Shown here one piece after another: positions 13,230 to 39,909 of a stretch of 43,647 nucleotides of DNA (position 1 is the first letter of the stretch; each line of letters starts with the position of its first letter). This DNA comes from Candidatus Dormiibacterota bacterium (GTDB lineage: Bacteria; Chloroflexota; Dormibacteria; Dormibacterales; Dormibacteraceae): assembly GCA_003151935.1 (NCBI GenBank), contig PLYZ01000092.1, positions 1 to 43,647 on the forward strand. The letters run 5' to 3'. The position numbers and the translations under genes are program-made. Below the pieces are notes generated by a model that was not told where the DNA came from, ran no database searches, and worked only from the letters and a program-made list of their open reading frames with translations.

Positions 13230-13889
13230 TCAACTGGAAGAGAGTGGGAGGGCCGGATTCTGGAACAGCACGATCAGTGCCCCGGCGGCCAGGTAGGGGC
13301 CGTAGGCGATCGCCTGCTTCATCGTGCGGTGCCGCACGATGAGGCCTACTGAAACGACGCCGGCCAGCACGACGCCGTAGAAGAGCGCCTGGATCGTGGG
13401 CAGCGGGCCCAGCAGCAAGCCCATGAACAGCGCGAGCTTGACGTCTCCAAACCCGAGAGCCTCTGCTCTGAAGATGGCTGAGCCCGCAAGGGCCAAGATC
13501 AGGAACAGTGCCCCCGCCACCAACCCGGCCGCGATGCCCGCCCACCACGGTTGACGGAACAGACTGACGAGCACCGCTGCCGCCATTGACGGGAACATCA
13601 CGCGGTCGAGGATCAAACGATGCTCGAAGTCGAAGAAGATCACCTGCACAAGCACGAGCACGAACACGCTGCGGAGCGCGAGCAGGGCAAGCGACCCCGG
13701 CTCGAATGCAGCGATCGCGAACAGGAGCGCGCCCAGGATCGGCGGCCCGTAGACCTGCCACCGCCTCTCGCCCGGCTCGAGCTCCTCCAACCGCGCGAGG
13801 CGCACCGAGCCCCGCCGCACGAGCCAACCCGCCGCCGCGCCAACGATCGCCCATGGCAGGACGAGCAGCAGCGAGCCGGCGGCGTTCAT
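13230..13889 (-). CDS. Prepilin peptidase (type IV leader peptidase, A24)
   Basis: These integral membrane aspartyl proteases cut prepilin leaders for type IV and Tad pili. The 219-residue protein has the two active-site regions, FFDFEHRLILDRVMFP (first Asp) and GFGDVKLALFMGLLLGP (the GxGD Asp), in a seven- to eight-helix hydrophobic protein. The N-terminal methylase-like loop lacks the zinc CxxC cysteines found in PilD; the loop reads LEPGERRWQVYGPP. The start at ATG 13889 overlaps the aroE stop as ATGA. It is the only processing enzyme in view and probably serves the Tad locus 14 kb away. Confidence 0.88.
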   Translation of the reverse strand: MNAAGSLLLVLPWAIVGAAAGWLVRRGSVRLARLEELEPGERRWQVYGPPILGALLFAIAAFEPGSLALLALRSVFVLVLVQVIFFDFEHRLILDRVMFPSMAAAVLVSLFRQPWWAGIAAGLVAGALFLILALAGSAIFRAEALGFGDVKLALFMGLLLGPLPTIQALFYGVVLAGVVSVGLIVRHRTMKQAIAYGPYLAAGALIVLFQNPALPLSSS

Positions 13890-28392: not shown

Positions 28393-30003
28393 TTAGAGCC
28401 CAGCCTGCTCGCGGGTTGTTCGGTACCCAGCTGCTGCTTTGAATGCTTCGACCAGGTCGTCCAGGTGTACCGGCTTGCTCATGTAGTCGTCGAATCCCGC
28501 TTTCAGGCAGCGCTCTTCGTCCCCCGGGCCGGCCATGGCGGTCAGCGCGATCAGCCGGGGCCGGCTCCCGCGCGGCCAACGCCGGCAGATCGCCTCCGCC
28601 GCGGCCAGGCCGTCCATCTCCGGCATCAGGACGTCCATGAGCAGTGCGTCGTACGGCTCCTGTGCCACCGCGGCCACCGCCTCACGGCCGTTCGAGACGA
28701 CGTCAGCTTGATGCCCGAGCTTGACGACCAGCCGTTTCAGAAGGTTCTGGTTGAGGGCGTTGTCGTCGGCGATCAGGACATGCAGCGCCCCCGGAACCAC
28801 CTCGACCTGCGGTTTCGGCACCGCGGCCCCGTGAACCCCGACCTGGACCATGACGTCGTGCAGCGTGCGGGCCGCCACCGGTTTTGTCAGCGTGGCCTGG
28901 ATCACGCCGCTGTCGGCGGCCTCCGCGACCTCCGGGCCGGGAGCGGCAACCGCGATCAGCACGATCGGGAGCTGGTCCGCGCGCTTCAGCGCGCGCAGCA
29001 TGGTGGAGAGCCCGAGCCCGTCGAGGACAGGGGGCCGGTGCTCGACGACCGCGATGTCAAACGGGTGTCCTGCTTTTACGACGCCCAGGGCCTCTTCGGG
29101 CGTGGCGGCCGTGGCCGTCGCTCCCCACTGTTCTGACTGCAGAGCGAGCACGCGCCGCTCGGTCGGGTCCGAGGTCACGACCAGCACCCGCATCGCTTCG
29201 AGCGTCAGCTGCGACGTGGTCACCGTCGCCGGCAGGACCTCGGCCAGGATCGTGAACTGAAAAGACGTGCCGGCGTCCGGACCGGCCTCGACGCCGCCCT
29301 GCTCGACCCGAAGCTCGCCGTCCATCAGCTCGACCAGGCGCTTGGTGGTCGCGAGGTTCAGGATCGCCAGCCGGTCACCCGGCTCCGGGCGGTCGCGAGG
29401 GGTTGAGACGCCGTCGAGCCCACCGCGCAAGATCCTGGCCGGGATACCACGGCCAGTGTCGCGAACCATGAAGCTCAGCGCGACCAGGCCACCTCTGTCC
29501 TCGAAGCCCAGCTCGACGCCCACGCCGCCCCGGAAGGTGCGCTCGATCCCTCCATGCAGGAGCGAGAGCACGATCTGCTCCAGCCGGCGAGAGTCGCCAA
29601 CAATGACGCTGGGCACGTCCGGCGCCGCCTGGAAGGAGAGGTCGAGGCCTTTGGCCCCCGCCGCATCGGCGACGAGTCCGATGCAGCTCTCGACGCTGGC
29701 GCGGACATCGAACGGATGAAGTGCAAGCTCGAACGCGCCACTCTGGATGGTGGCGGCGTCGAGGACGTCGTCGACCAACCTGGCGATCTGCTCGGCGCCG
29801 ATCTCCACGATCGAGGCGAGCTCGCGCTCCTCGTTGGAAGCGGCGCTGCCGGACAGCAGCCCTGCTGCTCCGACCACGGCGTTCAGCTGGTTGCGCACCT
29901 GGTGACCGAAGTCTGCGAGCAGCTCGGCATCCAGCACGCCGGGCTGCGGCACACCGTTCGTATGTGGACCTCCTTCCACCGGCTTCGCCTCCTGTTCGCT
30001 CAT
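28393..30003 (-). CDS. Hybrid histidine kinase with partly degenerate domains
   Basis: The 536-residue protein has no membrane segment. HisKA begins FGHQVRNQLNAVVGAAG with His34 as the expected phospho-acceptor. The HATPase domain keeps DTGRGIPARI (G1). Its N-box reads LSLLHGGIERTF with no Asn, and the region expected to hold GLGL reads GDRLAILNLATTKRLVELM. A first receiver-like domain has Glu where the phospho-Asp should be (VVEHRPPVLDG). The last domain is a normal receiver with LLMDVLMPEMDG and a Lys in KPVHLDD. ATG 30003 overlaps the cpaF stop by one base, so it is probably coupled to the pilus ATPase. Whether it signals is unknown. Confidence 0.85.
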   Translation of the reverse strand: MSEQEAKPVEGGPHTNGVPQPGVLDAELLADFGHQVRNQLNAVVGAAGLLSGSAASNEERELASIVEIGAEQIARLVDDVLDAATIQSGAFELALHPFDVRASVESCIGLVADAAGAKGLDLSFQAAPDVPSVIVGDSRRLEQIVLSLLHGGIERTFRGGVGVELGFEDRGGLVALSFMVRDTGRGIPARILRGGLDGVSTPRDRPEPGDRLAILNLATTKRLVELMDGELRVEQGGVEAGPDAGTSFQFTILAEVLPATVTTSQLTLEAMRVLVVTSDPTERRVLALQSEQWGATATAATPEEALGVVKAGHPFDIAVVEHRPPVLDGLGLSTMLRALKRADQLPIVLIAVAAPGPEVAEAADSGVIQATLTKPVAARTLHDVMVQVGVHGAAVPKPQVEVVPGALHVLIADDNALNQNLLKRLVVKLGHQADVVSNGREAVAAVAQEPYDALLMDVLMPEMDGLAAAEAICRRWPRGSRPRLIALTAMAGPGDEERCLKAGFDDYMSKPVHLDDLVEAFKAAAGYRTTREQAGL

Positions 30004-31493
30004 CAGTACAGCTGCTCCGGAGGAGGCTGACTCGTGGCCGCAAACAGCGAGTCCGGCAGCTGAACTCCGTTGGACACGAAATGCTGCTGAAAGATCGACT
30101 GAGCGCCCGTCGCCGTGTGATAGCCGACGGCCCGCCCGTCCGGGGTCACACCGACCTGGTGGAAGACGAAGATCTCCTGAAGGGCGATCTCGCCTTCGAC
30201 CAATCCCATCACCTCCGCGATGCTCACGACCTTGCGAGCACCCCCGCGCAGCCGTTCGGTCTGCACGATGACGTTCACGGCGGATGTGATCTGGCTCCGG
30301 ATGGCGCGCGATGGAAGCTCGGTGCCGGCCAGCAAGACCAGCGTCTCGAGGCGACCGAGGGCATCGCGCGGGTTGTTCGCATGCAGGGTGCTCATCGATC
30401 CGTCGTGGCCTGTGTTCATCGCCTGGAGCATGTCGAGCGCCTCGGGTCCGCGACACTCGCCGACGATAATGCGGTCGGGCCGCATGCGCAGCGAGTTGCG
30501 CACAAGGTCGCGGATCGAGATTGCGCCCCGGCCTTCGACGTTCTGCGGCTTGGACTCGAGGCTGATCACGTGAACCTGGCGCAGCCGGAGCTCGGCCGCG
30601 TCCTCGCACGTGACGATACGTTCGGTCGCGGGGATGAAGCCAGAAAGGACATTGAGGAGGGATGTTTTGCCCGACCCGGTACCACCCGAGACGATGACGT
30701 TGAGCCGGGTCCTTACCGCGGCGTCCAGGTACACCATCATCGCCTCTGTCGCGCCGCCCGTCGAGATGATCTTCTCGGGAGAGAGGACCTCCCGCCCGAA
30801 CTTGCGGATCGTCAGACAGGGGCCGTAGATCGCGACCGGCGGGATCACAACGTTGACGCGTGATCCGTCCTTAAGCCTTGCGTCACACATCGGCTCCGAC
30901 TCGTCGACGCGGCGGCCGATCGTGGAGACGATGCGATCGATCACGCGTCGCAGGCTGTCCTCATCCTCAAATGCAAGGCTGGTGAGCTCGATCCGGCCGC
31001 GCCGTTCGACGAAGATCTGCTCCGGCCGGTTGACCATGATCTCGCTGACCTCAGGGTCCCGCAGGAGCGCTTCGAGCGGCCCGAGGCCGATGACCTCGTC
31101 GAACAGGATCTCGACCAGACGCTCCTTGTCGATCGCCGTGACCAGCGCAGCGGGTGGCTTGGACCGGAAGTGGTCCTCGGTGAGCTGCATCAACAGGCGC
31201 CGGATGCCGGCGCGGTTGTTGATGTCGATGGCGGCGGCGTGCCGGCTGAGCAGCTGGGCGTGAATCTCGCCTTTCGCCGCGGCAAGGGTCGGGCTCAGGA
31301 GAGCCGACGGCTCGGCGATGCGGAGCGGTTCGGTGATCGGTCCTGCGGGCGCCGCCCCGTCCCGGGGAACGATGCGCCGTTCGGCCGGAGCAACTATGAC
31401 GGCGCCGGTCGAAACCGGGCCGGCGCCAGGCGATGGCGGCGCCGGCGAGGGCACCTGTTGATAGCGGCGGTCGAACCGCTCCGAGAGCTTCAT
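30003..31493 (-). CDS. cpaF: Tad pilus assembly ATPase CpaF/TadA
   Basis: This hexameric secretion ATPase powers Tad/Flp pilus assembly. The 496-residue protein starts with a Pro/Ala-rich leader, then the N-terminal domain, and the Walker A GGTGSGKTS at about 268-276. The Asp box TCEDAAEL, MRPDRIIVGECRG (Walker B region) and TGHDGSMSTLHANNPRDALGRLE with the His box follow. ATG 31493 overlaps the HEAT gene stop as ATGA; upstream codons to 31640 are a shadow. CpaF here lies on the opposite strand from the other tad genes. Confidence 0.95.
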   Translation of the reverse strand: MKLSERFDRRYQQVPSPAPPSPGAGPVSTGAVIVAPAERRIVPRDGAAPAGPITEPLRIAEPSALLSPTLAAAKGEIHAQLLSRHAAAIDINNRAGIRRLLMQLTEDHFRSKPPAALVTAIDKERLVEILFDEVIGLGPLEALLRDPEVSEIMVNRPEQIFVERRGRIELTSLAFEDEDSLRRVIDRIVSTIGRRVDESEPMCDARLKDGSRVNVVIPPVAIYGPCLTIRKFGREVLSPEKIISTGGATEAMMVYLDAAVRTRLNVIVSGGTGSGKTSLLNVLSGFIPATERIVTCEDAAELRLRQVHVISLESKPQNVEGRGAISIRDLVRNSLRMRPDRIIVGECRGPEALDMLQAMNTGHDGSMSTLHANNPRDALGRLETLVLLAGTELPSRAIRSQITSAVNVIVQTERLRGGARKVVSIAEVMGLVEGEIALQEIFVFHQVGVTPDGRAVGYHTATGAQSIFQQHFVSNGVQLPDSLFAATSQPPPEQLY

Positions 31494-32338
31494 GCCGGGC
31501 GCGCCTCCGCCACCGCGGGATGCAATCGCATCTGAGCATGCATGGCGGCTTTCTTGACATCGGCATCCGGCTCCCTGCCGACTAGGGTGCGAAGGCCATC
31601 GGACGCAGTCAGATCCCCGATCATGCCGAGCGACTTGCACGCGGCGATGCGAACGGGCTTAGGCCAGCGCCTGTCGTGGGCGATGCCGAGGAGCGGAGGA
31701 ACGCGAAGCGCGTCGCGCCGCAGCCCGCATGCGAGCACCGTGACGACCGCGGCCTTTTCGCTCTCGGGCCGGCGCATCAGTGCCTCGATGTCGAGGTCGG
31801 AAGCCGCCATGGCGAGGGCGATCGCAAGCCGGTGAGTCGGAATCCTGTCCGCCGAGGCCATGAGCGCCTCAACCGCTCGACGCCCGCCGAGAAGCCCCAG
31901 GGCTCGGATCGCCGACTCGCGCACCTGCGGGATCTCGTCCTGGACCAGGTCTTGAATCCAGATCGCCGCCTCGGTGAGGCGGAGAGACCCGCACAGGCGG
32001 GCTGCGGCGGCCCGGGTCAGGGGGTTCGGGCTCACCAGCGAGTTGAGCAGCTCGTCGCTGAGGCCTGCACGCCGGAAAGGTTCGGTGATGCGCCACTGGC
32101 CGGTCAGGCCAGGACCCGCCTGGGCGAGAGCCGCCACGATCACCGAGCCAATCCGGTAGGGCTCGCCAAGCAGGTCGCTGGAGGTGACGTTTAGCACGAC
32201 ATGGGGCTCGCCGGCGAGAGCAGCGTTAAGCACCCGCTCAATCTGAGCCGCCAGGCGAGATCTCGGAGCACGGGAACCAGCCCCCGGCCGCTTGGTCGGG
32301 CGCTGCAGATCGATCTCGGCCGGAGGCCTCGTGTTCAA
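31490..32338 (-). CDS. HEAT-repeat protein ahead of cpaF
   Basis: The 282-residue protein has a basic N-terminus, a region of unknown fold (about 27-95) and a run of alpha-helical repeats. Pieces such as LTRAAAARLCGSLRLTEAA, VRESAIRALGLLGGRRAVEALM and VRIAACKSLGMIGDLTASDGLRTLV match the HEAT pattern. Such repeats bind proteins. It is translationally coupled to cpaF by an ATGA overlap, so a role in pilus assembly or its control is likely but unproven. TTG 32338 is the start, facing the CpaE gene across a 56-nt region. Confidence 0.7.
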   Translation of the reverse strand: MNTRPPAEIDLQRPTKRPGAGSRAPRSRLAAQIERVLNAALAGEPHVVLNVTSSDLLGEPYRIGSVIVAALAQAGPGLTGQWRITEPFRRAGLSDELLNSLVSPNPLTRAAAARLCGSLRLTEAAIWIQDLVQDEIPQVRESAIRALGLLGGRRAVEALMASADRIPTHRLAIALAMAASDLDIEALMRRPESEKAAVVTVLACGLRRDALRVPPLLGIAHDRRWPKPVRIAACKSLGMIGDLTASDGLRTLVGREPDADVKKAAMHAQMRLHPAVAEARPA

Positions 32339-32394: not shown

Positions 32395-33690
32395 TTGAGC
32401 GCCCGTGAGGTTCACGAAGCCTATCGGGCCCGGGAGGAAGAGCCACACCAGGTGGGTGCCAGCAGCGAGCCCGCCGCCGACCAGGCGCCGTCAGCCGTGC
32501 AGATGAGGACGCGAATCCTGGAAATGTCGACCGTGTTCGCCGCGCTCGGCGACGGGCCGCTCCGGGCCGTCGCTCGGCGCATGCGAGCCATCGGGCTGAC
32601 CGCCCGGGATACGCTGCGCCTCAAAGCTCATGGCGGTGACGTGGTCCTCTTCCTCGCGTCCGGCCAGGTCGAGGAATCGATCACCGACGGCACCGGCAAA
32701 GTCCTCCTGACGCGACGCCCCGCGCCCGGCGACCTGGTCATCCTCCCCGCGCCCCGGACCAACGACCGGTATCAGACGGCCATCTACGGGCTGACCGACG
32801 CAGTTCTGCTCACGCTCGACCGGGACGGGCTGCTCGAGGGCCTCGGCCCTGAGGTCGAGAAGGTGGCGCTCGCCCTCGACCGGCTGTGGGAGCAGGAGCT
32901 GTCGGCCGTCAACGCCGCCGAGGTCCAGCGGTCCTCGCGCACGGCGGCACCCATCGTCGCGTTTTTCTCGGCCAAAGGGGGTTCCGGGGTCACCACCCTC
33001 GCCATCAACACCACGGCGGTGCTCGCCAAGAAGTTCCCGCGCCAGGTCCTCCTGGTCGACCTGTCGGCTCCGTTCGGGCACGCGGCCCTCTTCGCCGACC
33101 TCATCGCCACCGGCTCGATCGCGAGCGCCGCCAAGGCCGCCCAGGTCGACTTTGAAACCGTGCTGCGGGGCAACATCGTCAATCACCGCTCAGGCATGGG
33201 AGTGCTTCCGGGGACGCTGCGGCCCGAGGAGGTCGACCTGATGACCGGTGACCTGACCGGGCGGGTCCTCGATGTCGTCGTCAGCTGGCAGAGGTTGATC
33301 GTGGTGGACCTTGGCACCTCGCTGGGCGAAGCGGCGCTGGCTGTGCTCGAACGCTCGGAATGTGTGGTTATCGTCATACCCCCCGAGATTGCCGCGATGA
33401 CCGATGCACGGCGCTCGCTGGCCGTCTTCCGCGACATCCTGAACGTAGCTGACAACCGCATCGAGCTGGTCCTCAACCAGCGGGTGCCACACCCGCCGCT
33501 GGATCGCGCTGCAGTGGAGTCGATCCTCGGTCGAAAGATGTCGGTCACCGTCGGGTTCGACGATTCCCGGCCCGAAGATGCGGCCCTGGCCGGCGGCCTG
33601 GTCCTCCAGCGCGACCCGAACTCGCTTGTCTCCCGCGGGGCGACAGACCTGGCAAAGGTGATCCTCTCCAACCTGAAGATGGATGTCTGA
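32395..33690 (+). CDS. CRP-like domain fused to a CpaE/TadZ-type ATPase
   Basis: The 431-residue protein has two parts. Residues about 43-148 look like a cyclic-nucleotide-binding beta-roll: MSTVFAALGDGPLRAVARRMRAIGL, VVLFLASGQVEESI, RRPAPGDLVIL and TDAVLLTLDRDGL. Residues about 187-431 are a MinD/ParA-type P-loop ATPase with AKGGSGVTT (193-201), LLVDLSAPFG, IVVDLGTSLGEAALAV and LVLNQ. The second Walker Lys is replaced by Val, as is common in CpaE/TadZ. CpaE positions the Tad machinery. The start is TTG 32395 and it is the first gene of the plus arm. The usual CpaE has a receiver-like N-domain instead, so this fusion is unusual. Confidence 0.8.
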   Translation: MSAREVHEAYRAREEEPHQVGASSEPAADQAPSAVQMRTRILEMSTVFAALGDGPLRAVARRMRAIGLTARDTLRLKAHGGDVVLFLASGQVEESITDGTGKVLLTRRPAPGDLVILPAPRTNDRYQTAIYGLTDAVLLTLDRDGLLEGLGPEVEKVALALDRLWEQELSAVNAAEVQRSSRTAAPIVAFFSAKGGSGVTTLAINTTAVLAKKFPRQVLLVDLSAPFGHAALFADLIATGSIASAAKAAQVDFETVLRGNIVNHRSGMGVLPGTLRPEEVDLMTGDLTGRVLDVVVSWQRLIVVDLGTSLGEAALAVLERSECVVIVIPPEIAAMTDARRSLAVFRDILNVADNRIELVLNQRVPHPPLDRAAVESILGRKMSVTVGFDDSRPEDAALAGGLVLQRDPNSLVSRGATDLAKVILSNLKMDV

Positions 33691-34180
33691 ACCGACGCGA
33701 CGAAGGTCAGGCCAGGCGATGGTCGAGTTCGCGATCACGCTGCCGATCCTCATCCTGCTCGTGGCCGGGGTCCTCGAGCTGGGCCGGGGCTATGTCTTCG
33801 CGGTGGCGACCTCAGACGCGGCCCGTGACGCGGCCCGGTACGTGGCAGGCAAGACATCGACGACCAACGGACCCGGCCTGGCCAACATGTGCAGCCTCGT
33901 CACGGCGGACCTGGCGGCCATCACCTCGAACGTGAACTGCCCCCCGACGCAGGTCAACCACGCGCCGCCGTTCGTGGCCGGCACTGACTTCACGGCGCCG
34001 GTGGCGGGACATGCCGTCGTCGCGGTCTATTGCGGCACCAGCTTGAACTGCACCGGGTCGGTGACCACCTATTACGGCTCCGAGGTTGATGTCTATGTGT
34101 ACTACGGGTTCAGCGACCTCAACCTGCTGGGAGGCGGGATCACGATCTCGGGATCGAGCCGCTCCACCACGTCCTGGTGA
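33683..34180 (+). CDS. TadE-like pseudopilin
   Basis: The 165-residue protein has the TadE leader: RRRSGQAMVEFAITLPILILLVAGVLELGRG, that is a basic start, a Gly before the hydrophobic segment and Glu at the fifth position of the mature part. The prepilin peptidase is expected to cut after that Gly. Four Cys lie in the exterior region. ATG 33683 overlaps the CpaE-type gene by eight bases (ATGTCTGA). TadE-like proteins are minor pilus components needed for assembly in other systems. Confidence 0.88.
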   Translation: MSEPTRRRSGQAMVEFAITLPILILLVAGVLELGRGYVFAVATSDAARDAARYVAGKTSTTNGPGLANMCSLVTADLAAITSNVNCPPTQVNHAPPFVAGTDFTAPVAGHAVVAVYCGTSLNCTGSVTTYYGSEVDVYVYYGFSDLNLLGGGITISGSSRSTTSW

Positions 34181-34848
34181 GGCTATTTGCTCGCCCCTCT
34201 AGGCAATGCCCTTCGGGCAGCGCCCACCTCCCCACGTGGTGGGGAGGCAAGGCCCAAGCGATGGTGGAGTTCGCCCTGGTGGCGCCGGTTGTACTGCTCA
34301 TCATCGGCGCCACGGTCGACATGGGACGGGGCATGCTGATGTACGCGCTGCTGCAGGGAGCTTCTCGCGACATGGCCCGGCAGGCGGCCCTCGACTACTA
34401 CAGCGGATCCAACACCCTGCCTCCCAACTGCACAGCGCTCACGACCCCGTGCTCGCTGACCTCGGTCGTCAACGGCGCGCACCTGCTCGACTCGCTGGGC
34501 GCTTCCGTCGTATACAGCGATTCGGGCACGATCTCCGCAGCGCCGCTGTCATACGGGTCCTATGCCGGGGGCACCACCACGCAGCCAGGGACCATAACTC
34601 TGGTCGGCGCCACCAACCCGAACACCGTCTACGTCTTCATCTATGAGCTGGATTCGACAGGCGGCCCGAATCCACGTTGGAGCTGCCCGTCGTGCGCAGC
34701 GGCCAACGGCGCGGCGGTTCGCACCGGCGGCCACCAGCTCGCAGTGGTCGACCTGAAGCTCAAGTGGCAGCCGGTGATGGCAAAGTTCCTGGGCATCCCG
34801 AGCGTGATCACGTTCGACTCCCAATCCGTGATCCGGATGGAGTTCTAG
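34177..34848 (+). CDS. TadE/TadF-like pseudopilin with repeat-derived leader
   Basis: The 223-residue protein has the TadE-type segment AQAMVEFALVAPVVLLIIGATVDMGRG followed by the expected helical and beta exterior part with Cys pairs. Its leader (about residues 6-24) is encoded by palindromic repeat B copy 2 and reads HLPTWWGGK near the cleavage region. That gives an unusual Trp pair before the membrane segment. GTG 34177 overlaps the first TadE stop as GTGA. The next ATG (34261) would lose the whole leader, so the repeat appears to be part of a working signal. Confidence 0.82.
   Translation: MRLFARPSRQCPSGSAHLPTWWGGKAQAMVEFALVAPVVLLIIGATVDMGRGMLMYALLQGASRDMARQAALDYYSGSNTLPPNCTALTTPCSLTSVVNGAHLLDSLGASVVYSDSGTISAAPLSYGSYAGGTTTQPGTITLVGATNPNTVYVFIYELDSTGGPNPRWSCPSCAAANGAAVRTGGHQLAVVDLKLKWQPVMAKFLGIPSVITFDSQSVIRMEF
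34192..34250 (+). repeat. 59-bp palindromic element, family B, copy 2 (inside pseudopilin leader)
   Basis: The same element as at 2191-2249, in the orientation that places CGCCCCTCT first on this strand. Hairpins are TGCCC/GGGCA and CCTCCCCAC/GTGGGGAGG. It is read as Arg-Pro-Ser-Arg-Gln-Cys-Pro-Ser-Gly and on to Trp-Trp-Gly-Gly, a different frame from the rluB copy. Both frames are open. Confidence 0.8.
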
Positions 34849-37193
34849 TGAAGCGGCGACGGTCGCAGTCCGGCCAGGTGATGGTGCTCGTCGCGCTGTC
34901 GTTGATCGCGTTGATCGGCTCGGCGGCGCTCGTCTTGTTAGCCGGCTCGGCCGAGTGGCAGAAGAATCAGCTGCAGCAGCTTGCCGACCAGGCGGCGCTC
35001 GACTCCGCTTTGAAGATCGGCATCGGCTGCGACGCTGCCAAGGCGACGGCCATCATCACCGAGGCGGACAATTTCCTCGCCACCCAGCGGACGCGCACCG
35101 GAGCGCTCAGCATCGCCGGCGGCGTGTGCGCCGCTCCGTACACAGGCACCGACACATTCGCCGGCGGCCTGAGCGAAACCATCAACTATCCGTACCGGGC
35201 GCACCAGCAGCAGGTCGAGGTGGTCCTGACCCTGACCCTTCCTATCTCATTCGGCGGCGTGGTGGGTAAGACGAGCACCACATTGGTTCGACGCGCGGTG
35301 GCCCAGGCCTTACCTGGATCAACTTCCGCGGTTTCAGCCACGACCCTCACGTGCAGCAGCGGCCAGGTCAACGTCGCCGGCAGTGTGCTGGCCCAGAACC
35401 TGATCGTGCGCAGCGGAACGTGCGCGCTGTACGCCCATGCCCGATTCGACGCAGCGTCCAGCACGTATTCCGACCTGGGCAACGTGAGCGTCTACACGGA
35501 CGGGCAGACCTGGACCGCCCCTGGCACTTGCGCCGTCGGAAACAGCGGCTCGAAAAGCGCGATCTGCGCTGACGGCTTCGAGTTGAGCGGCCACACCGCG
35601 CCGGCCTGCGCCGCGGCCGCCACCTCGTATCTGCTGGCCGGCGACAAGACCATCAATCCCAATCCATGCGCGGCGGGCACCGGACCCCAGCCGGTTCCGC
35701 CGCTGTCCACAACCCTCCCGCCCGAGCCGAACACCGATGCCAGCGCGATCGCCACCCTCCAGGGCACCGGTGGAGCGGCCTGCACGGCCGCTGGGGTCTA
35801 CAACCATGCCATCGTCGTTGGTGGCTCGACTGTTGCCACAGGCACCGTGACGACTCCGGTTCCGGTCAAGGATGCCAGCGGCTTCTATCACTTCAAACCA
35901 AGCTGCTATGGGTACCTGAACCCCAGCTCTCTAAGCGGTGGTGGGGGCGGCATCACGAACCGGCAGACGGGCCCGGAGGCGGGTCCGGCGACCGGGACGC
36001 TCACGTTGACCCTGCCTGCAAACAGTCAGGCGGGCACCCTGCTGGTGGCTACTCTCCGCTCCGAGACGAGCCCGTCGCGGAAACCGTTCACAGCGCCTGC
36101 AGGATGGGTCTCGGCGGTCGCTGGCGGAGCTTTCCTGGACGGGACCGCGCACACGGAGATCTGGTACTACCCGAATAACCCCGGTGGAATCGCAAGCGTT
36201 GACTTCGGCGTCAGCCCAGCCTCGATCAACGCCGTCGGACTGATGACGGAATGGTCAGGTGTGGCCGCGGCCTCTCCGCTGGACAAGACCGGGGTCGTTA
36301 CCGTCAGCTCAAACCAGGCGTCGGTGACCATCTCAACCAGTGCCGCCATGACCACCGCCAACGAGCTCGTGATCACCGACCTCGGCAGCGACAGCGACCA
36401 GTCGCCCGAGAACTACACACCGGGGGCCGGGTGGACGAGCCTGGTCAGTGACTCAAACAACTTGTTCGCCTCCCAGTACCGGCTCAGCCTCCCAGCAGGA
36501 GTCGCGAGCGAGACGGTTACCGGCTCGCAGGCAACCGCTTGGGCGGTGATGATCGCGTCCTTCAAGCCCGCCGCCGGTGGAGGCCCTGGCGCGGTGCTCG
36601 ATCCCGGGTTCTACTACTTCAACGGCTCCGGGTTTGCGGGCGGAGGTGGCATCTGCCTCAACGGCGGAACCCTGCTCGCGCGTGATGTCACTCTCGAGTT
36701 CGTCAATCAGGCTGGATTCTCGTCGGGCACCTGTGCGGCGGGAGGGGGCGCCGCGTGCGCTGCCGCAGCTTGCCAGTTCGGTTCGACCCCTTGCTCGCTG
36801 TCGGCCTGTCCACCCAATACAGCGGCGGACTCGCCCAACAACCTCACCTGGTTTGCAGCACCCTGCTCGACCGCGCCCACAGGCGATGCCGCAAGCTGTC
36901 CCGCTTCCGCGTGGTGCACTGCCGGTGACCGCGCCTGCTCGAACGTACTGATCTGGGCGCCGGCAAGCAACACCGGTCAGTTCGCGATCAAGGGCGTCAC
37001 CGTCAAACACTGGCTGCTCGGCTCGATCTACTGGCCTGGCACCTGCACGGACAGCGTGAACGGAACCTCAACGATCTCGGGGACGTTGTTCTGCGGCCCA
37101 CTATCCATCTCCGCCGGCGCCGGCGCGGGGTTCGCTGTGGGCGGCAACTACGGGATCGCCACTTCGTTGGTGGAGGCAGTGCTCGTCGAATGA
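34848..37193 (+). CDS. Giant TadG-like protein with an inserted beta domain
   Basis: The 781-residue protein starts like TadG: VKRRRSQSGQVMVLVALSLIALIGSAALVLL, then a helix ending AEWQKNQLQQLADQAALDSALKIG, as in the TadG N-terminal module. A long exterior part follows. Residues about 370-578 form an inserted domain (TGTLTLTLPANSQAGTLLVATLRSE ... VMIASFKPA) with the look of secreted beta-sandwich adhesion modules. The C-terminal region resumes a Cys-rich TadG-like pattern; about 22 Cys occur overall, implying disulfides outside the cell. GTG 34848 shares a base with the previous TAG. The normal TadG is about 300-500 residues. Confidence 0.78.
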   Translation: MKRRRSQSGQVMVLVALSLIALIGSAALVLLAGSAEWQKNQLQQLADQAALDSALKIGIGCDAAKATAIITEADNFLATQRTRTGALSIAGGVCAAPYTGTDTFAGGLSETINYPYRAHQQQVEVVLTLTLPISFGGVVGKTSTTLVRRAVAQALPGSTSAVSATTLTCSSGQVNVAGSVLAQNLIVRSGTCALYAHARFDAASSTYSDLGNVSVYTDGQTWTAPGTCAVGNSGSKSAICADGFELSGHTAPACAAAATSYLLAGDKTINPNPCAAGTGPQPVPPLSTTLPPEPNTDASAIATLQGTGGAACTAAGVYNHAIVVGGSTVATGTVTTPVPVKDASGFYHFKPSCYGYLNPSSLSGGGGGITNRQTGPEAGPATGTLTLTLPANSQAGTLLVATLRSETSPSRKPFTAPAGWVSAVAGGAFLDGTAHTEIWYYPNNPGGIASVDFGVSPASINAVGLMTEWSGVAAASPLDKTGVVTVSSNQASVTISTSAAMTTANELVITDLGSDSDQSPENYTPGAGWTSLVSDSNNLFASQYRLSLPAGVASETVTGSQATAWAVMIASFKPAAGGGPGAVLDPGFYYFNGSGFAGGGGICLNGGTLLARDVTLEFVNQAGFSSGTCAAGGGAACAAAACQFGSTPCSLSACPPNTAADSPNNLTWFAAPCSTAPTGDAASCPASAWCTAGDRACSNVLIWAPASNTGQFAIKGVTVKHWLLGSIYWPGTCTDSVNGTSTISGTLFCGPLSISAGAGAGFAVGGNYGIATSLVEAVLVE

Positions 37194-37237: not shown

Positions 37238-38029
37238 ATGTCAATCGCCACCCCTGAGGCTGGCCGGCCGCGCCGGGGACGCCTTTACATAGTCATCGGC
37301 GCAATCCTCACGGTGCTTGCTTTTGCGACGGCAGCGGGCCTCGCCAGCCTCTCGCTGCTCCAGACCAACACCAACGGGACGCGCGTGGTCGTGGCGAGGA
37401 ACGCCATCGGCGCGCGCACCAAGATCCAGGCCTCCGACCTGATGCTGAGCTCCGTCAACCCTGCGCCGCCGCAGTCGTTCACCCACGTCGACGCGGTCGC
37501 CGGCAAGGGAGCACGCGTCGACATCCCAGCGGGATCGCCCGTCACCGCGAACCTCATCGCTCCGGCAGGCGATGTGTTGAGCAGCAGCGACGTGGCCTTC
37601 CTCCCCATCCCGTCGGGCTTCGTCGCGGTGACGGTTCCGACAGGTGAGCAGGTCGGCGTCGGCGGCTACCCCCAGGTCGGAGACCGCATCACCATGCTCG
37701 CCACCCTGAACACGTCGGTTTTCGGCGCGAGCCCTCCGGTTCCCGTGGTGCGGACGGTCTTCACCAACCTGGACATCATCAGGGTCGGCCCCGTGGCATC
37801 GCAGGCCGCAAGCGGGGTCCCGAGCAGCCTCACCCTGCTCATGACCGGGTGCGATGCCGAGTACCTGTTCTGGCTCCTCAACAACTCGGTCTTGAAATAC
37901 GCGCTGGAGTCGTTCAGCGACTATTCGGCCACTCCCACCCAGCCCGATCCCGCGTGCCCGAAGCTCTCGTCAGCCGGTGGAGTCGGACCCAAACAGGTTG
38001 ACAACCGCTGGCACTTCACCAGCGGCTGA
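37238..38029 (+). CDS. cpaB: Tad pilus assembly protein CpaB (SAF domain)
   Basis: The 263-residue protein has one N-terminal membrane helix (about 17-41) and a SAF-type domain (about 48-115: VVVARNAIGARTKIQASDLML, then GKGARVDIPAGSPVTANLI). VAVTVPTGEQVGVGGYPQVGDRITMLAT follows, as in CpaB/RcpC. CpaB connects the inner and outer parts of the machinery in Gram-negatives; in this putative monoderm its partner is unknown. ATG 37238 follows a 44-nt gap after tadG. Confidence 0.88.
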   Translation: MSIATPEAGRPRRGRLYIVIGAILTVLAFATAAGLASLSLLQTNTNGTRVVVARNAIGARTKIQASDLMLSSVNPAPPQSFTHVDAVAGKGARVDIPAGSPVTANLIAPAGDVLSSSDVAFLPIPSGFVAVTVPTGEQVGVGGYPQVGDRITMLATLNTSVFGASPPVPVVRTVFTNLDIIRVGPVASQAASGVPSSLTLLMTGCDAEYLFWLLNNSVLKYALESFSDYSATPTQPDPACPKLSSAGGVGPKQVDNRWHFTSG

Positions 38030-38032
38030 TCC

Positions 38033-38977
38033 ATGTCGATGAGCGTCATCTTCATCGCGGCCGCCGCGGCCATCGGCGTCGGGCTGGTTGTCTACGGGAT
38101 CGTCGGTGCGGGCCGCGCGGCGGCGAGCGCCGAACCTAGCGCCCGCGTCACCTACCGCACCCTGGCCGACGTGCGGGAGCAGCTGAGGAGAAGGTTCGAG
38201 CCGACCGGTGCGCCGGTGTGGATCGCTGCCAACCAGAAGGTGAACTCACTCGCCGCCGACCTGGCGAGCGCCGACCTCCAGCTCCGACCGTACGAGTTCC
38301 GGCTGGTCCAGACAGCGTCCGCGCTGCTGTTCGCCTTGATCGCGCTGCTTCGATTCGGGATCTCGATCCCCGTCGTGATCCTTGCGATCATCGGCTTTGC
38401 CCTTCCGGCGCTTTACCTCCGCAATCGACGCGGCCATCGGCTCGCCCAGTTCGAAACAGAGCTGCCCAGGGCGATGGAGCTGATGGCCAACTCGATGAAG
38501 GCCGGCCAGTCGATTGCCCAATCCATGCGAGCGGTGACCGAAAACGCCGGTCCGCCGGTCTCGGATGAGTTCGGACTCGCCAGCAGGGAGATCGAGCTCG
38601 GCGCTTCGATCGAGAGTGCGCTCGGAAACATGGTCAAGCGGATCGGGAGCAGTGACCTGAGGCTGGTGGTCATGGTGATCACGATCCAGCACTCAGTCGG
38701 AGGCGACCTGCCGGCGATCCTCATCAGCCTTGGCGACACCATGAAGCAGCGAGCAGAAATGCGTGCGGAGGTCCTCGCCTCGACCGCCCAGTCCCGTGCG
38801 TCGTCGCTGATCATCACGCTGCTTCCGATCGCAGCAGCTCTCGGCCTGTACTTCCTCGTCCCTGACTATTTCCGGCCGATGTTCACGAATCCGTTGGGCT
38901 GGTTCATGCTGGCCATCGCGGCCGTCATGCTGGGGATCGGAAACTTCATCATCCGCCGCCTCACGGCAGTCACATGA
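38033..38977 (+). CDS. tadB: Tad pilus inner-membrane protein TadB
   Basis: A 314-residue T2SSF-domain protein. It has an N-terminal membrane segment, a middle membrane pair, and the core ELPRAMELMANSMKAGQSIAQSMRAV, followed by VVMVITIQHSVGGDLPAILISLGDTMKQRAEMRAEV and two C-terminal membrane helices. TadB and TadC form the platform driven by CpaF. ATG 38033 is used (a second ATG is at 38039). It lies three bases after cpaB. Confidence 0.93.
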   Translation: MSMSVIFIAAAAAIGVGLVVYGIVGAGRAAASAEPSARVTYRTLADVREQLRRRFEPTGAPVWIAANQKVNSLAADLASADLQLRPYEFRLVQTASALLFALIALLRFGISIPVVILAIIGFALPALYLRNRRGHRLAQFETELPRAMELMANSMKAGQSIAQSMRAVTENAGPPVSDEFGLASREIELGASIESALGNMVKRIGSSDLRLVVMVITIQHSVGGDLPAILISLGDTMKQRAEMRAEVLASTAQSRASSLIITLLPIAAALGLYFLVPDYFRPMFTNPLGWFMLAIAAVMLGIGNFIIRRLTAVT

Positions 38978-39909
38978 GCCTGGGGCCCCTGCTCCCGCTC
39001 CTCGTCGGCGTCATCGCAGCGGCAGGTGTGTGGCTGCTGGCGTCTGGGATCGTGTCGGCCCGAGCGGGCGACGCGACGATGCTGGCAAGGCAGAGGCTCG
39101 CCCGCCAGGACATCGGCCTCGGCCAGAGCGCCGCGGCGCTCGAGCTGGAGAAGCCCCTTTTGGAACGACTCTTCGCGCCCGGCCGGCGCTGGCTCGCGCG
39201 GCAGATGACCCGCCTGACCCCCACGGCGCAGGCCGCGAACTTCCGCCGCCAGCTCGATTTCGTCGGCGACCCCCTCGGTCTCGACCCCGCGGGCCTGCAG
39301 GCGCTCCGCATCACGGCGGCCGCCGGGCTGGGAGCCCTCGGGGTGGCCTTTGGTGTTCTCATCGGGACGTCATTCGCGATCGGTGTCGCCCTCCTCATCG
39401 GTGTGGCGATCGGGTTCTACCTCCCCGTGATTTGGCTCGACCAGCTGGTGCGTCAGAGGCGGTCTGAGCTCGAGGCCGTGCTGCCAAACGCGTTGGACGT
39501 GGTGGCGATCAGCATGGAGGCCGGCCTCGGCCTGGACCGGGCGCTCGAGCAGCTGGTTCGTCACCAGGAGGGGCCGCTCACCTTGCTCGTCGCCCGCGCG
39601 CTCCGCGAGATCGAGCTCGGCCGCCCGCGCGCCGACGCGTTGGAGGACATGGCCGCGGCGACCGGCGTAGAAGACTTCCACTCGCTGGTGAAGGGCATCC
39701 TGCACGCGGAACGTACGGGAGTGCCCATCGCCCGCACCATCGCGGCGCATTCGGCTCAGATGCGGGTCAAGCGGCGGCTCAAGATCCGTACCGATGCCGC
39801 GCGCGCGTCACTGAAGATCCTGCTTCCGACGGTCGGGTGCGTCTTCCCGACCCTGTGGCTGATCCTCCTGGGGCCGGCGGTAATCGTCGCTCTCACCTTG
39901 GGTCACTAG
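38974..39909 (+). CDS. tadC: Tad pilus inner-membrane protein TadC
   Basis: A 311-residue T2SSF-domain protein with the core VLPNALDVVAISMEAGLGLDRALEQLV and VEDFHSLVKGILHAERTGVPIARTIAAHSAQMRVKRRLKIRTDAARASLKILLP. Membrane segments lie near both ends. ATG 38974 overlaps tadB as ATGA. Its stop TAG shares the four bases CTAG with the stop of the convergent hydrolase gene. Confidence 0.93.
   Translation: MSLGPLLPLLVGVIAAAGVWLLASGIVSARAGDATMLARQRLARQDIGLGQSAAALELEKPLLERLFAPGRRWLARQMTRLTPTAQAANFRRQLDFVGDPLGLDPAGLQALRITAAAGLGALGVAFGVLIGTSFAIGVALLIGVAIGFYLPVIWLDQLVRQRRSELEAVLPNALDVVAISMEAGLGLDRALEQLVRHQEGPLTLLVARALREIELGRPRADALEDMAAATGVEDFHSLVKGILHAERTGVPIARTIAAHSAQMRVKRRLKIRTDAARASLKILLPTVGCVFPTLWLILLGPAVIVALTLGH

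Follow-up and report, generated by a model that had tools for sequence, protein, structure and literature searches.

TadZ, encoded in Tad pilus loci, has been described to carry an atypical Walker A motif, to bind ATP and to show low ATPase activity (PMC6668835; PMC13170226). A model for Caulobacter places six CpaE dimers in a ring that encircles CpaF, and the contacts between dimers are likely made by the receiver domains (PMC13170226). The CpaE receiver domain is widespread and its role has been unclear, with recent in situ work pointing to a role in ring contacts. That a receiver is the usual N-domain of CpaE, as a sequence-only reading of the present DNA had held, was borne out by our scan of Tad-locus CpaE proteins from other families of the phylum, nine of ten of which matched Pfam Response_reg.

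The window, by which we mean the whole 43,647-nucleotide stretch of DNA that was analysed, belongs to a Candidatus Dormibacterota MAG and encodes a protein with a different layout. An open reading frame at 32395–33690 on the forward strand (431 residues) fuses a CRP-like N-domain to a MinD/CpaE-like C-domain, inside a Tad locus. The fusion is a new domain variant of the known TadZ/CpaE family, and no description of it was found in the open-access literature searched. The true start is probably the GTG at 32452, which would give a protein of 412 residues, and not the TTG at 32395. A GTG or ATG at this codon and a GGGAGGAAG-type Shine-Dalgarno sequence directly upstream are kept in most orthologs (L021, L022, L028 and L029 are among the few that depart from this pattern), and the ortholog comparison revealed no clear Shine-Dalgarno sequence upstream of the TTG. 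The later start shifts the residue numbers of the sequence-only reading by 19; residues are numbered here throughout from TTG 32395, as in the 431-residue version. The gene and its parts are as follows:

32452..33690, + strand, cpaE/tadZ with a CRP-like N-domain, probable coding sequence (conserved GTG/ATG and Shine-Dalgarno sequence in most orthologs)
32494..32820, + strand, CRP-like (cNMP_binding) beta-roll with its leading helices, residues 34–142 (Pfam, profiles, AlphaFold2 model)
32728..32778, + strand, degenerate phosphate-binding cassette region, residues 112–128, GDLVILPAPRTNDRYQT (Gly-Glu and cassette helix lost)
32821..32928, + strand, long helix 143–178, counterpart of the CRP C-helix, bridging both domains (AlphaFold2 secondary structure)
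32947..33675, + strand, MinD/ParA-type CpaE/TadZ ATPase domain, residues 185–427 (Pfam, NCBIfam, PDB and Foldseek matches)
32974..32997, + strand, deviant Walker A motif KGGSGVTT, residues 194–201 (signature Lys kept, second Lys replaced)

The N-domain has a CRP-type fold. Pfam cNMP_binding matched residues 81–148 of the whole protein with E=0.0011, which is below the curated cut-off, and matched the isolated N-domain with E=2.4e-4; all 12 orthologs scanned matched this family (best 9e-7), and no other family was matched by more than one of them. A profile built from the orthologs alone found CNB-type domains in the PDB, the best being KCNH channel homology domains (4.6e-5), with weaker matches to CNG channels and CRP/FNR regulators. 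In hhalign comparisons the N-domain of the window clade scored 98.7% against canonical cNMP paralogs, 99.2% against a second Tad-linked clade (C) and 94.2% against cNMP-MinD proteins from other families of the phylum, while the receiver profile scored 0.16%, on which we rejected a disguised receiver domain. The AlphaFold2 model of the protein (mean pLDDT 82) predicts helices at residues 34–44 and 53–61, then eight strands within residues 64–142 and a helix at 143–178, as expected of a CNB domain, in a model that is not fully independent because the paralogs were in its alignment. Prediction and profiles agree on an eight-strand beta-roll with flanking helices. A Foldseek search with the whole model was uninformative on the N-domain because the 50 matches listed are all P-loop NTPases (MinD/ParA-type proteins, HypB and the nitrogenase Fe protein).

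The C-terminal part had been read as the MinD-like ATPase of CpaE/TadZ, and both the sequence matches and the Tad-locus context agree with this assignment. AAA_31, the CpaE-related NCBIfam Ssd model and archaeal MinD models match residues 175–427, and the closest solved structure is that of a ParA-family ATPase, 3ea0 (phmmer 9.7e-18, Foldseek 2.3e-15). Every sequence in the alignment keeps the signature Lys of the Walker A motif; in place of the second Lys the orthologs have V, T, A or L. A C-terminal amphipathic membrane helix is a further trait of TadZ/CpaE proteins, and the sequence of the window protein stops directly after the last ATPase helix.

The other genes of the window that bear on the Tad system are these:

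13230..13889, − strand, prepilin peptidase (no other was found in the genome)
28393..30003, − strand, hybrid histidine kinase with two receiver domains (Pfam and ortholog loci)
30003..31493, − strand, cpaF/tadA motor ATPase (T2SSE, 5.1e-62)
31490..32233, − strand, HEAT-repeat protein, the start of which may be 32338 (found in all of the cNMP-CpaE Tad loci examined)
33683..34180, + strand, TadE-like protein (Pfam)
34177..34848, + strand, second TadE-like protein (Pfam)
34851..37193, + strand, long protein at the TadG position (by position only; no convincing Pfam match)
37238..38029, + strand, cpaB/rcpC (Pfam)
38033..38977, + strand, tadB platform protein (T2SSF)
38974..39909, + strand, tadC platform protein (homology to TadB, conservation across the loci)

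The prepilin peptidase possibly serves this Tad system. Gene order is kept in the long ortholog loci displayed, with hisS/aspS as well as a metallo-beta-lactamase-fold gene and relA at their flanks. A Tad context was found for 24 of 24 loci of the orthologs (clade A) and 17 of 17 loci of clade C. The HEAT-repeat gene is present in every one of these loci (24/24 and 17/17, or 41/41, all loci over 8 kb), a co-occurrence that shared ancestry could explain in part since both clades come from one family; it was found in none of 19 Tad loci with tadB and tadC from other families of the phylum. Flp pilins are encoded outside the window, one of them in another Tad locus, the second that the genome has (L135, contig C86), which contains the Flp pilin, cpaB, cpaF, tadB and tadC and lacks both cpaE and the HEAT gene. 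The hybrid histidine kinase adjoins cpaF in the ortholog loci displayed and may supply the receiver input that is missing from the cNMP-CpaE protein.

Full-length clade A orthologs (64–95% identity) occur in 25 of the 37 genomes of the host family, own genome included, and further full-length paralogs at 31–36% identity form several clades. Clade B has a canonical cassette (FFGEMALISEETRTASV) and does not lie beside Tad genes; in the clade B loci read, a HesB/IscA-like gene adjoins, with groESL next in two longer loci. Orphan cNMP-MinD paralogs with a canonical cassette are encoded in L002 (contig C18, same genome), L062, L065 and L097, the last three with the HesB/IscA-like neighbour and L062 and L065 with groESL next. 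Clade C, found in Tad loci of a second type, keeps the Gly-Glu pair (D for E in 2 of 18); its Arg is gone, with Gln in that place in most cases. Clade D lies within a kinase/receiver cluster, and clade E includes a PAS-GGDEF-cNMP-MinD protein. A 698-residue protein with PAS, GGDEF, cNMP and MinD-type ATPase domains (L073:7240-9336, genome G007 of the host family) apparently links c-di-GMP synthesis to a positioning ATPase. Proteins of the cNMP-MinD type also occur in a small number of further families of the phylum, some as tandem pairs; in L100, L101 and L102 the two genes in tandem differ, which suggests heterodimers.

Maximum-likelihood analysis of the ATPase domains places all 48 cNMP-MinD rows in one clade (98/92) among receiver-type CpaE homologs, and each of the clades A to E forms a single group; for the point at which clade A joins, the tree tool gave a long-branch warning. 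A single swap of a receiver for a cNMP domain would be the simplest history of this tree. Beyond the chromosomal loci, a search of plasmids for the fusion gave 21 records, none reaching 80% query coverage, and no such fusion was found in viral contigs. A scan of the contigs of the genomes with patterns taken from close relatives, which are insensitive to distant phyla, gave matches in this lineage only. Elsewhere in the host genome, a receiver-MinD ATPase sits outside the Tad loci in a CheW/kinase-type cluster (L061, contig C1, about 4.8–15.5 kb) with a class III cyclase nearby, and L137 and L139 (contigs C89 and C92) are two diverged copies of one gene block, which points either to a duplicated block or to more than one strain in the MAG.

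The phosphate-binding cassette of the Tad-linked proteins has been lost in part. Among 29 distinct clade A sequences, 28 have I and one has V in the column of the cassette Gly, and 28 have L and one has V in that of the Glu. In one alignment Y or F stands in the Arg column; in an alternative hhalign alignment R121 of the PAPRT motif, which is conserved in clade A with a near-invariant Arg, falls opposite the cassette Arg, flanked by gaps, one to either side, and the loss of Gly-Glu stands under both alignments. The GD at residues 112–113 was considered as the cassette GE and rejected, since its counterpart in the paralogs is the GD/DD ahead of FFGE. In the model of a canonical paralog a cassette helix (107–110) directly follows the GE, and the model of the window protein has none at that place. 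With Gly-Glu gone in clade A and Arg gone in clade C, both Tad-linked clades have therefore lost parts of the cassette; an intact one was found in paralogs away from Tad genes. The dN/dS of the degenerate N-domain is 0.04–0.14 over nine pairs, against 0.02–0.11 in the ATPase, indicating that the domain is under purifying selection. The sequence-only reading had noted that the cassette Arg was not obvious and that ligand binding may be lost; the alignment upholds the former, and the replacement of Gly-Glu in 29/29 sequences makes a loss of canonical binding probable. Its suggestion of a pilus whose placement or assembly depends on a nucleotide or other small ligand gained no positive support: both Gly-Glu columns hold hydrophobic residues, the cassette helix is missing, and the canonical cassette belongs to paralogs away from Tad genes. 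Since the fold is kept and the standard nucleotide pocket is lost, the N-domain is probably a structural part and not a cAMP sensor.

With moderate confidence, we favour the reading that the N-domain is a ligand-independent scaffold that replaces the receiver domain in a Tad CpaE/TadZ, with the HEAT-repeat protein as its probable partner. The alternative closest to the sequence-only reading is that a remodelled pocket in the beta-roll continues to bind a ligand, be it an unusual nucleotide or some other metabolite, and that binding switches CpaE dimerisation or docking, so that Tad assembly would respond to the ligand. The near-invariant Arg of PAPRT, alignable with the cassette Arg, makes such a pocket possible, and the purifying selection on the domain is consistent with it. 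The host genome, moreover, makes the raw material for a cyclic-nucleotide signal, with six matches to class III cyclases and, counting that of the window protein, nine cNMP domains, eight of them in addition to it. We nevertheless consider a remodelled pocket rather unlikely given that the Gly-Glu pair and the cassette helix are gone, that clade C has also lost its Arg and that the proteins which keep a canonical cassette lie away from Tad genes.

Two further explanations question the Tad role or the fold itself. The protein could be a MinD-type positioning ATPase for a non-pilus cargo that sits in the Tad locus by chance, as related cNMP-MinD proteins of clades B, D and E are encoded away from Tad genes and the second Tad locus of the genome manages without CpaE. 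The invariable Tad linkage in two separate clades, together with the run of tadE, cpaB, tadB and tadC that continues from the gene on its own strand, makes this improbable. That the N-domain is not CRP-like and its weak Pfam match a matter of chance is harder still to credit: the window protein alone falls under the Pfam cut-off and phmmer against the PDB reaches only E=0.15 for the N-domain, but the orthologs match cNMP_binding without exception and nothing else consistently, and the CNB profile matches, the hhalign score to the cNMP paralogs and the topology of the model all speak for the fold. On the strength of the ortholog matches and the profile-profile scores we rejected a chance resemblance.

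Under the favoured scaffold reading, the ATPase half would be expected to bind ATP, to hydrolyse it weakly, given its deviant Walker A motif, and to dimerise with ATP. ATP-bound CpaE would then bring CpaF, the motor, together with the TadB/TadC platform at a single site. The beta-roll and its long C-helix would no longer sense a cyclic nucleotide; they may instead act in dimerisation and in the docking of partners, and take over the ring contacts proposed for the Caulobacter receiver domains in the CpaE ring around CpaF. The co-encoded HEAT-repeat protein is the probable partner of the roll. More speculatively, cNMP-gated MinD-type positioning ATPases might have arisen once in the phylum, with members that have an intact pocket placing their cargo in response to cAMP and the Tad versions giving up the pocket and gaining a HEAT partner, so that a dead sensor became a scaffold of the motor ring; we hold this wider scenario to be doubtful.

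The variant is known from one family of soil bacteria and places a CRP-type domain at the usual receiver position on an ATPase that organises Tad pili. Such a natural swap by an unrelated fold tests what the CpaE receiver domain must do: if a beta-roll without a pocket can stand in for it, scaffolding and not phosphorylation would be its essential task. Clade B, the sister clade that keeps its cassette intact, hints at positioning ATPases, possibly regulated by cAMP, that form a class not yet studied.

Among known systems, the CRP/FNR transcription regulators have the beta-roll and long C-helix in common with the window protein, which differs from them in its lost cassette and in having a MinD ATPase after the C-helix instead of a helix-turn-helix DNA-binding domain, for which the Pfam/NCBIfam scan gave no family match. 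The CNB homology domains of the KCNH (EAG) channels, which have the CNB fold without a cyclic-nucleotide ligand, are the best PDB profile match; they are eukaryotic and serve as an analogy only, and we found no evidence in the window N-domain for an intrinsic-ligand motif of the KCNH type. The clade B cNMP-MinD proteins of the host family, with L002 in the same genome, belong to the common clade and have the same full-length architecture at about 34% identity; they differ in their canonical cassette (GE...RTAS) and in their location away from Tad genes. With the TadZ/CpaE proteins (Eubacterium rectale TadZ, 3fkq; Caulobacter CpaE) the window protein shares the MinD-like ATPase, the deviant Walker A motif and the encoding in a Tad locus. 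Other members have a C-terminal tail past the last ATPase helix that the window protein lacks, and it carries a CRP-like beta-roll where they usually have a receiver domain.
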